Assembly: GCA_025352235.1 (NCBI GenBank)
Contig: JANXTU010000170.1
Location: 1-42,403, forward strand
Source: Fimbriiglobus sp.
GTDB lineage: Bacteria > Planctomycetota > Planctomycetia > Gemmatales > Gemmataceae
DNA: 42,403 nucleotides
Direction: 5' to 3'
Below the pieces are notes generated by a model, which saw nothing but the letters and a program-made list of their open reading frames with translations, had not been told where the DNA came from and made no database searches. Shown here in pieces: positions 39,501 through 42,403 of the stretch; positions within the stretch are counted from its first letter, which is position 1; each line of letters opens with the position of its first letter. The translations under genes were made by a program, and so were the position numbers.

Positions 39501-40658
39501 ATGCGCGATCCGATGACTTGGGCGCTGCCGATCTTCCGAGCCTTCGGCATCCAAGTCCGCGTCCACATCCTGTTTTTCATCGTCACCCTCGGGTTGTTCC
39601 TCCGCCAGGTTTACCTCCCGGGCAACGTCGTCTGGTGGGGCGACGCGCTGATGTTCACGGTCTTTTTGCTCTTCGGAATCATCCTCCTCCACGAGTTCGG
39701 CCACTGCTTCGGCGGCCGCGCCGTCGGTGGCGAAGCCGAAGAAATCCTCATCTGGCCCCTCGGCGGATTGGCCTTCGTTTCGACGCCGCACGATTGGAAA
39801 TCGCACAGCTACACCGTCGCGGCGGGGCCGTTTGTCAACGTCGTCATCTGCTTCCTCTCGGGGGTGCTCGTCGCCGGGGCCGGGTTCATCCCCACGTTCA
39901 ACCCGATCTACGATCCGTACGTCTGCGAGATGAAACACGTCGGCTCCGATAACCGCGTGTTCACGAGCCAGTACGGCCTGCGACTCTATCAACCCGAGAC
40001 CGGCGTCGCCCCGCCGGGGCTCGACAAAACCTTCGTGGGCAAACCGGCGGAGTTGACCGAAGAAGCCGCGAAGACGACCTACGACCGGGCGCTGCTCCCC
40101 GGGTGGATCGTCTGGATGAACCGGACCTTCTGGCTGTCGTGGATTCTGCTGCTGCTCAACATGATCCCGGCGTTCCCGCTCGACGGCGGCCAGTTGCTGC
40201 AAGGGTTCGTCTGGGGGCGGCGCGACTTCCGCACCGGCGTGACGGTGGCCGCGTACACCGGGTACGTCTGCTCGGCGCTCATGCTGATCGCGTCGATCTC
40301 CGCCAACGAATCGATGTTGATGGGCCTCGGGCTGTTCATGCTCTTCAGCTGCGCCCTGAAGCTGCGCAGCCTCGACTCGGAAGAAGGGGCCTTCGGCTAC
40401 GACTTCAGCGCCGGCTACACGAGCCTCGACCCGGACGAGGAATCGCCGAAACCGAAGCCCAAGAAGTTGAACTTCGTGAAGCGCTGGCTGAAAGCCCGCA
40501 CCGCCAAACGCCTGCGTTACGAAGCCGCTCAGCGCCAGCAAGACGACGAACGCATGGACCAACTGCTCGAAAAAATCGCCCGCGGCGGCAAAAACGCCCT
40601 CACCGACGACGAACGCCGATTCATGGAGCGTGTCAGCGCCCGCTTCCGGAACAAGTGA
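39501..40658 (+). CDS. site-2-protease-like M50 metallopeptidase
   Basis: 385-aa membrane-embedded zinc protease. HEFGH at residues 64-68 supplies two zinc ligands and the catalytic Glu. NMIPAFPLDGGQLL (about residues 216-230) provides the third ligand Asp in the usual N.x.P..PLDG motif. The first catalytic helix is followed by WPLGGLAF and the second by SYTVAAGPFVNVVIC, as in the SpoIVFB/M50B group. Members cut transmembrane segments of regulators. There is no PDZ or CBS domain. The C-terminal tail is basic, then ends LLEKIARGGKNALTDDERRF, a motif also seen at the end of some rhomboid proteins. The first ATG (39501) is used; 39513 is an alternative. It stands alone, divergent from the Gld-type operon. 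Confidence 0.88.
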   Translation: MRDPMTWALPIFRAFGIQVRVHILFFIVTLGLFLRQVYLPGNVVWWGDALMFTVFLLFGIILLHEFGHCFGGRAVGGEAEEILIWPLGGLAFVSTPHDWKSHSYTVAAGPFVNVVICFLSGVLVAGAGFIPTFNPIYDPYVCEMKHVGSDNRVFTSQYGLRLYQPETGVAPPGLDKTFVGKPAELTEEAAKTTYDRALLPGWIVWMNRTFWLSWILLLLNMIPAFPLDGGQLLQGFVWGRRDFRTGVTVAAYTGYVCSALMLIASISANESMLMGLGLFMLFSCALKLRSLDSEEGAFGYDFSAGYTSLDPDEESPKPKPKKLNFVKRWLKARTAKRLRYEAAQRQQDDERMDQLLEKIARGGKNALTDDERRFMERVSARFRNK

Positions 40659-40667
40659 TCCGGGATG

Positions 40668-41150
40668 TCACGCGATCAGCGCCCACGGCTTCGCCGGCCA
40701 ACCTTTCTCGGTGTTATGCCGCTCCACGTAATCCCGGCGCGCGTCCAAGGCCGTTTCATCGAAGCAGAACCGTTTGTCGTATCCGTCGGTCCAAATCGGC
40801 CGGACCGGCCGCAAGCCCCAGCGCACCGCATCCTTCCCGCACTTGACCACCGCTTCCACAGGATGATGCGTCGCCCCGATCAGTAAGTGGACGTGCCAAA
40901 TTTGCACCGTGAGCGCGAGCACCGTCACCGCCTTCCGCTCGACCAGCGACTTCCCGATCATCGCTCCCACACTCAGCAATTCGTCCGGGGCGAACAAGAA
41001 AGGCGTGTGTGTCATCCGGGCTCGGTCGGCAACTTGCAATTCCGGAGCGGCCGGGTACGTGATGCCGTCCTCGACCCACCCGCGCGCATCGCCACGGAGC
41101 CACGTGCCGTACGTCGTCCAAGTGAACAGAATCCCGAGGGTCGAATTCAT
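40668..41150 (-). CDS. REP-associated tyrosine transposase (RAYT, IS200/HUH-like)
   Basis: 160-aa Y1-transposase relative. HVH at residues 86-88 (QIWHVHLL) is the metal-binding HUH motif, and Tyr141 in the DYVERHN helix is the candidate nucleophile. The N-terminal WTTYGTWLRGDARGWV box is characteristic of a RAYT-like subfamily. RAYTs cut single-stranded DNA at REP hairpins and are usually single-copy domesticated transposases. Here two REP-like hairpins lie directly upstream of the start (41164-41302), as expected for a RAYT and its substrate. The frame is intact. It is not in an operon with the ThuA gene, because the hairpin pair lies between them. Confidence 0.85.
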   Translation of the reverse strand: MNSTLGILFTWTTYGTWLRGDARGWVEDGITYPAAPELQVADRARMTHTPFLFAPDELLSVGAMIGKSLVERKAVTVLALTVQIWHVHLLIGATHHPVEAVVKCGKDAVRWGLRPVRPIWTDGYDKRFCFDETALDARRDYVERHNTEKGWPAKPWALIA

Positions 41151-41158
41151 GGATCACC

Positions 41159-41307
41159 ATTTAGCCCCCGGTGAAAGGTTCCCGCTCTGGGGAACCGCAC
41201 CGGGGGCGGAACCATGGGGGCGCACGAGGAGAACGGTACCGGACTATTTCTCGTCCGCCCCCGGTGCGATTCTCCCAAAGCGGAGAACCTTTCACCGGGG
41301 GCTAAAT
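41159..41307. repeat. pair of inverted REP-like hairpins (BIME-like foldback)
   Basis: Arms 41159-41210 and 41254-41307 are near-perfect inverted repeats; the outer 23 bases and inner 15 bases match exactly. Each arm is also a hairpin by itself: unit 1 (41164-41207) has GCCCCCGGTG / CACCGGGGGC outside and GGTTCCC / GGGAACC inside. Unit 2 (41257-41302) keeps the same outer stem with an inner TTCTCC / GGAGAA. The changed bases of the inner stem still pair, which suggests the fold is under selection. It lies between the ThuA and RAYT genes and ends 9 bp from the ThuA stop. Confidence 0.85.
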
Positions 41308-41315
41308 TATCGTCT

Positions 41316-42314
41316 TTACTTCTTCGCCGTCGGCGGCAGGATCATCTTGAAGGGCTGATCTTTCTTGTCGAGGTTGCGGTTCAAATCGACGGGGTCGAGG
41401 TCGACCTTCGCGCCGGCGTCCGGGACTTCGGCGTTCGCCGACCAGAGGATGGCATTCACCACCGTCCGGCGGAAATTCTCGTCGCCCCAATTGCGGTGGT
41501 TGTGCCCACCCGTGAAGCCGAAGGCCCGGCCTTTGTTTTCGCGCTCGTAGGCCCAAGCCAGCGTCTCGATACGGCCGAGGTGCTTCTTCGCATCGGCCGT
41601 GCCGCGCTTGTCGTCCGGCGGCAGCGCTTGCAAAATCGGCGTGACATTCTTGGCGTCTTTCACGTCCGCGCGATCGCCGATCCAGTGCATGTTGAAGTAC
41701 CATTCGTCGTTGATCTCGAACGGTTTGACCCCGCGCGCGATCGGGTGCTTCGGCAGCGTGCGGATGTTCGCGTCCCAATGCGGGTTGGTGCTGACGCGGG
41801 GGTCGTAATAGCCGCCCATCCACGAGACGACGGTGTCGCCGTGCTTCGGATCGTAATCGACGGCATAGTGCATGTTCACCCAGCCCGCGCCGGCGTCGAT
41901 GTGCTTTTGCAGCAGTTTCAGCCGGTCTTTCTGGACGACCGGGTGCCCGCCGCGGCCGTCCATGTAGAAGACCAGCGCCGCGGCGCCGTCGAAGACTTTT
42001 TCATCCTTCGGCCAACCGTCGCGGACCATCACGGGCCAAACGCCGGGCGTCTGTTTCAGCAGGTTCATCAAGAGGGCCGTGCCCGCGAAGAACTCGTGGT
42101 CTCCGGGGCCGTGGCTCTTGCTCCCGGCGACGAGGACGATCTTCTTGCCTTTGAAATCGGCCGGGGCTTCCACGCCGAGCGCGACTTTCGATTGATCGAA
42201 CGGATCGAAACCGAGTACTTTGAGTTGCTCCGGGGTCGCGGCATTCTTCACGGGCTCAGCGGCCGTGGCACCGACTGCGAAAATCAAGGATGCGAGAGAG
42301 GTTCGCCAGAGCAT
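41316..42314 (-). CDS. secreted ThuA-domain protein
   Basis: 332 aa. A signal peptide (MLWRTSLASLIFAVGATAA) is followed by a ThuA-like, class I amidotransferase-fold domain: KIVLVAGSKSHGPGDHEF, VFDGAAALVFYMDGRGGHP, IDAGAGWVNMHYAVDYD, EWYFNMHW and AFGFTGGHNHRNWGDENF follow in the family's order. ThuA was named for trehalose utilisation; planctomycetes carry many secreted copies, usually linked to sugar or polysaccharide breakdown, but the reaction is not settled. ATG 42314 begins the signal peptide; a longer frame to 42392 adds an Arg/Pro-rich stretch. GGAAG lies about 10 bp upstream. It is probably monocistronic. Confidence 0.85.
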   Translation of the reverse strand: MLWRTSLASLIFAVGATAAEPVKNAATPEQLKVLGFDPFDQSKVALGVEAPADFKGKKIVLVAGSKSHGPGDHEFFAGTALLMNLLKQTPGVWPVMVRDGWPKDEKVFDGAAALVFYMDGRGGHPVVQKDRLKLLQKHIDAGAGWVNMHYAVDYDPKHGDTVVSWMGGYYDPRVSTNPHWDANIRTLPKHPIARGVKPFEINDEWYFNMHWIGDRADVKDAKNVTPILQALPPDDKRGTADAKKHLGRIETLAWAYERENKGRAFGFTGGHNHRNWGDENFRRTVVNAILWSANAEVPDAGAKVDLDPVDLNRNLDKKDQPFKMILPPTAKK

Positions 42315-42403
42315 GGGAGAGCTTCCGGGTAAGGGGCGCGGACGCGGGCGGTATGACAGTAAAATAGGAACAGGCCCCACCCGTGGCCGCAAGCCGATTT
42401 TCC

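Follow-up and report, generated by a model that had tools for sequence, protein, structure and literature searches.

The window analyzed here, a stretch of 42,403 nucleotides from Fimbriiglobus sp., includes on its minus strand (positions 40668–41150) a gene for a 160-aa RAYT-like Y1/HUH protein, with the sequences WHVH (H86 and H88), IWTDGYDK and YVERHN (Y141). A gene on the plus strand (39501–40658), which we take from its HEFGH motif to encode an M50-type metalloprotease, converges on it; the two stops lie 9 bp apart, and no hairpin unit was found at the window locus on this downstream side. The upstream neighbor, on the minus strand (41316–42332; 338 aa from an internal start), is presumably ThuA-like. 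A ThuA-like gene adjoining the protease gene was found at none of the 29 relatives' loci within about 1.5 kb (the G002 locus breaks off 298 nt past the gene), and a tblastn search for carriage of the RAYT on plasmids gave no match.

Two hairpin units precede the RAYT gene. Unit A (41161–41207, plus strand) consists of a TTAG foot and a two-stem hairpin, with an outer stem CCCCCGGTG/CACCGGGGG and an inner stem GGTTCCC/GGGAACC. Unit B (41257–41305, minus strand) is an inverted copy of unit A, again with a TTAG foot and a two-stem hairpin. Together with the spacer that separates them (41208–41256), they make up a REPIN/BIME-like inverted pair of 149 nt (41159–41307). The foot of unit A points toward the RAYT gene, the start of which is 10 nt away. 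TTAG stands 5′ of each hairpin on the hairpin's own strand, and its G is the first paired base. The first-pass annotation had described two opposite hairpins of about 45 nt ahead of the RAYT gene, and this was borne out: the hairpins proper comprise 44 nt (41164–41207, plus strand) and 46 nt (41257–41302, minus strand), and the stability of each exceeds that of all of its 200 shuffles (z of -4.59 and -4.31). Jointly they form a 149-nt near-palindrome (z about -13), whose outer arms (41159–41181 and 41285–41307) are 100% complementary. That the differences between the units preserve pairing in the inner stems held for the most part: one arm of unit B carries a T, and the opposite arm an A, that unit A lacks, which amounts to one inserted pair with pairing kept, but a C-to-T change between the units makes one G-C a G-T. 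A reading of the hairpins as a terminator was rejected; there is no T run or terminator-like site in 40600–41500.

No Pfam or NCBIfam family gave the protein a name at E cut-offs of 0.001 and 1, Y1_Tnp of Pfam being a weak match (E = 0.16, 12.5 bits, cut-off 23). As Pfam leaves the protein unnamed, the RAYT call stands on fold, homologues and motifs. The AlphaFold model obtained from an alignment of 55 relatives has a mean pLDDT of 95.4. In a Foldseek comparison it matched 4er8 best (E 9.7e-5), the structure of E. coli RAYT in complex with a REP hairpin; IS200/IS605 transposases came next. VIA-align of 4er8 and the IS200/IS605 matches gave Z values of 12.0–10.5; 4er8 (Z 10.8) has the longest alignment among these matches, 121 residues. 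Across the 55 rows of the alignment, H86 and H88 do not vary and Y141 is conserved in at least 90%, in agreement with the earlier description of a RAYT gene with intact HVH and Tyr. Alignment and predicted structure thus give a Y1 HUH fold with both the HuH motif and the catalytic tyrosine. The gene is present in a single copy in the window genome.

Copies of the unit in the window genome and its relatives

The window genome, a MAG that is 90.4% complete, amounts to 5.49 Mb over 613 contigs. It was searched with a 22-nt core, for which up to three mismatches were allowed, with a 166-nt query in BLAST, with the exact pattern of the hairpin and with a covariance model of the unit, and no further clear match was found beyond the two units at the RAYT gene. 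The next covariance-model match, on contig C400, has an E value of 0.008, comparable to that of the top matches in two genomes of the same genus, G001 (E 0.027) and G002 (E 0.006), in neither of which a close RAYT homologue was found. Gaps in the assembly could hide some copies; partial units at contig ends should have appeared in the core and BLAST searches. The proposal that the pair identifies the REP family of this genome was consequently not supported, and the assembly, as far as it reaches, contains no genome-wide REP family built from this unit. In the same genome, two further Y1-like genes (L004 on contig C254 and L005 on contig C151) have their own inverted repeats on both sides, of the CCGAGCGGTGGGCGTCAGCCCTCCGAGG-type and GGCCTCAAAGAGGCCAGCCACAC-type, and these may be its active repeat families.

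A close RAYT homologue is present in 3 of 59 genomes, namely the window genome itself, G012 (58% identity) and G039 (54%), and six more (L055–L060, 57–60%) came from the genome collection. The same CCCCGG-type hairpin core flanks all eight of these closest homologues (54–60% identity), usually with a TTAG foot; at L058 the best hairpin has CATAG, and there is one TTAG unit in addition. Including the window, TTAG units are found at all nine close loci, on both sides of the gene in six and upstream only in three, and GTAG was counted zero times at hairpins near these nine genes. Most units of the close relatives are short (hairpins of 21–23 nt), whereas those of the window have an inner second stem; long two-stem hairpins also occur beside L062, L063 and L087. 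The contig of L058 is titled Vicinamibacteraceae (Acidobacteriota) and that of L112 Actinomycetota; both loci belong to the TTAG branch of the protein family described below, and their placement reflects either transfer or mis-binning.

The pattern TTAGCCCCCSG..CSGGGGG is present in eight of the nine genomes with a close RAYT: with some single palindromes counted twice, there are 28 matches in G039, 24 in G064, 13 in G059, 11 in G063, 8 in G061, 5 in G060, 3 in G012, 2 in the window genome and 0 in G062. Dispersal of REP copies between genes, a usual trait of REPtrons that is missing from the window genome, is found in the sister genome G039. Under a crude ORF caller, 4 of 21 unit centers in G039 fall inside ORFs, against 92% of random positions, and in the other genomes 11 of 26 do so, against 84% (some places being counted twice), which is a weaker contrast. 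Hairpin pairs lie dispersed away from the gene in sister genomes, and the inverted pairs of G039 span about 120–160 nt, compared with 149 nt in the window. At L209 and L223 of G039, the TAG of the unit foot appears to act as the stop codon of an adjoining long open frame.

Among the 59 genomes the pattern occurs in eight. Judged by eye, its stems are fully paired in the window genome, G012, G039, G043 and G045, and not fully paired in G007, G008 and G032. G043 has 7 pattern matches and 34 model matches up to E 1, and no close RAYT was found in its 87%-complete assembly; its units are either orphaned repeats, or the RAYT gene is missing from the assembly. TTAG units of G043 lie at L200 and L205–L208. 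Abundance of the unit in genomes lacking this RAYT, which the first-pass annotation had named as an observation that would speak against a matched pair, is thus the case in 1 of the 56 relatives without a close RAYT and not in the rest. Both the units of G043 without a close RAYT and the absence of the unit elsewhere in the window genome count against reading the window locus as a REPtron. REPtrons are reported, in the available text of PMC3733652, also from species without a REP family, so dispersed copies are not required.

The closed genome G430 has two copies of such a locus, L256 (at 5,352,687) and L281 (at 1,351,640), lying 4.0 Mb apart and 94% identical over 1506 nt. The duplicated stretch holds the gene and its upstream units, and the match stops at the stop codon of the gene, not at a hairpin. 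The two RAYT genes differ at 16 synonymous and 9 non-synonymous sites, and the resulting dN/dS of 0.17 indicates that the protein has been kept under constraint. As judged from these sequences, this pair is the sole sign here that duplication of a REPtron of this type can include its gene. One of the copies adjoins, at its left edge, a sequence that by its motif resembles a group II intron 3′ end.

TTAG units and the protein family

In the wider family, the presence of TTAG units was compared with the protein motif that starts at W. For 85 of the 87 loci the W motif was readable (2 were dropped), and a TTAG-footed hairpin lies within 300 nt at 53 of the 56 loci in which it ends in DK, against 6 of the 29 in which it does not, a comparison whose Fisher value is inflated by shared descent. 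Near the genes of the DK group, TTAG, with its register neighbor TAGC, ranks first of all 256 tetramers (130 near hits vs. 25 far hits). On a protein tree of 84 of the 87 rows (LG+C20 PMSF; the short or frame-shifted L072, L102 and L123 were left out), TTAG units occur within 300 nt at 58 of 60 genes on one side and at none of 24 on the other. The two misses on the TTAG side are L097, with a hairpin preceded by ATAG, and L111, the contig of which ends just past the gene. The TTAG label changes 3 times on the tree, compared with 22.5 times on shuffles, the label being common by descent and the rows not independent. The window protein falls in a nine-row clade with 100/100 support; L134 and L029 (G044) form one pair with zero-length branches.

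The DK label was later refined to an aromatic residue, and a set gathered afterwards is therefore the fairer test. It comprises 29 loci from 392 genomes of the phylum. Units were found at all six loci with an aromatic residue at W+4 (L253, L254, L255, L256, L260 and L281, of which L256 and L281 are the two copies of one genome) and at none of the 23 others (p 2e-6), four of which (L265, L274, L275 and L278) were already in the earlier homologue sample. A cruder held-out test of motif against unit gave 1/1 vs. 3/29. The branch signature is W-T-x-[GK]-[YF]-D-K, with the tyrosine followed by H[ND]; proteins of the TTAG branch carry WH[VIL]H or else NHVH, for the most part G[YF]DK, and a Y[VI]--H followed by N, D, E or S. 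TTAG is conserved across the branch as the tetranucleotide 5′ of the REP hairpins that flank the gene. The comparison therefore supports the proposal that gene and hairpins are a matched enzyme and substrate pair, given the eight of eight homologues and the contrasts of 58/60 with 0/24 and 6/6 with 0/23.

Three loci deserve separate mention. L033 (G045), an exception to the motif rule, is a class-3-like gene flanked by long palindromes with TTAG at both ends. L120 and L125, from Planctomycetota MAGs, are class-3-like genes with GGDK; CGTAG precedes their hairpins, so that a foot resembling GTAG occurs beside the TTAG branch.

Known systems and alternative readings

We are confident that the locus is a REPtron, in which a single-copy RAYT of the TnpA-REP type directly follows its cognate REP hairpins, arranged as a REPIN-like pair. 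The REPtron of E. coli (4er8; subclass 2.2 of Quentin, group 2 of Bertels) likewise has a Y1 HUH fold encoded by a single gene next to inverted REP pairs, a 5′ tetranucleotide foot and a bulged two-stem hairpin. It differs by its GTAG foot, Y---NP and WE, where the window has TTAG, Y---HN and WT-GYDK, and by a large REP population, where the window genome has only one pair. The latter also separates the window from REPINs in general, with which it shares two inverted REPs and a spacer. The canonical subclasses 2.2, 2.4, 2.5, 2.7 and 2.8 (GT[AG]G, Y---NP) do not accommodate a locus with TTAG in both units and YVERHN, but classes 2.6 and 3 are also without GT[AG]G (PMC6006769), so TTAG excludes the canonical subclasses and not the REPtron kind. 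Class 3 TnpA-Y1 proteins, found mainly in Planctomycetes, Acidobacteria and Proteobacteria, resemble the window protein in W[TA], in the lack of NP after the tyrosine and in atypical flanking hairpins, and the outer rows of our tree match the class 3 motifs NHVH and YV---Q. They differ in their CnGA foot and Y----Q; in the window the foot is TTAG and Y141 is followed by VERHN, W-T being shared (PMC6006769). The GTAG/CGTC REP superfamilies are, similarly, palindromic intergenic repeats tagged at one end, some of them in Planctomycetes (PMC3733652). From its sequence, the locus is thus a predicted orphan REPtron of a TTAG-guide branch lying next to the class 3 proteins.

The REP feet described in the available text of the surveys are GT[AG]G, CGTC and, for class 3, CnGA (PMC6006769, PMC3733652, PMC8266576). 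TTAG does not appear in the main text of PMC3733652 and was counted zero times in PMC6006769, and no paper on a TTAG-type REP was found by title or abstract start, most subscription papers lying beyond the reach of the search. The REPtron kind is already known; what is new, relative to the compared text of these surveys, is its TTAG-footed form.

By analogy with known RAYTs, the protein most likely binds single-stranded REP DNA at the hairpin, and the four nucleotides 5′ of the stem, TTAG and not GTAG, would most likely serve as recognition and guide sequence. Y141 would cut beside the hairpin and rejoin the DNA, REP pairs being moved or copied, probably on single-stranded DNA exposed at replication. 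In the published model, cutting at CT follows from A3G4 of the guide (PMC8266576); TTAG keeps A3G4, so cutting at CT would be predicted. According to the same source, REP recognition has been dissected for RAYTs of Escherichia, Stenotrophomonas and Marinomonas, all with GTAG. In E. coli, W94, Q95, E100, H101 and R104 are among those residues that either read GTAG or are conserved (PMC6006769), and the W-T-x-G-Y-D-K of the branch appears to start at the equivalent tryptophan, matched by motif and not by structure. It is a tentative proposal, at slightly less than even chances, that a guide switch took place, such that planctomycete RAYTs whose segment equivalent to the GTAG-reading one of E. 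coli contains W-T-x-[GK]-[YF]-D-K recognize TTAG, and that motif and tag together are a usable recognition code.

Of the other readings, the one that fares best has the hairpin pair work chiefly at the RNA level, where it would slow translation or transcription of the RAYT gene and would be kept for this reason without copies having spread. Folded as a transcript, the region gives a single long hairpin (z -9.4) that ends about 10 nt before the start codon, and of the 57 upstream units in the wider family, 53 have the foot toward the gene, the nearest unit being 5–92 nt from the match start. However, a terminator-like site is missing and the dispersed and downstream copies of relatives need another explanation; we consider this reading rather unlikely as the main function, and it is compatible with that of a REPtron. 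That the locus represents a conventional insertion sequence of the IS200 type, with the hairpins as left and right ends that move with the gene as one unit, is improbable. The fold is common to IS200/IS605 transposases, hairpins stand on both sides of the gene in relatives (6 of 9 close loci, 36 of 53 in the wider family), and the 1.5-kb duplication of gene and upstream units in G430 indicates that such loci can be copied. Against this, the window genome has one copy, both hairpins lie on one side with 9 bp between the stops on the other, pairs are dispersed without the gene in sister genomes, and the G430 stretch ends at a stop codon. Neither class 1.1 of IS200/IS605 (Y---Q, multicopy, subterminal hairpins at both ends) agrees with a single-copy gene with YVERHN and no downstream hairpin, nor TIRYT, with terminal inverted repeats on both sides of the gene, with two arms upstream. 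That hairpins and gene adjoin by chance, as the lack of further units in the window genome might suggest, has a negligible probability and appears refuted as far as comparison can do so by the shared hairpin core of the eight nearest homologues, the split on the tree and the later set.

As the whole population of units in the window genome is the one pair beside the gene, its REPtron would be a newcomer, a relic, or kept for an effect on its own gene. For the family, a naturally occurring branch whose tag differs, together with a matching change in the guide-reading segment and a clean sister group that has other repeats, would offer protein and substrate pairs for swap experiments; this planctomycete type would escape REP searches restricted to GT[AG]G.
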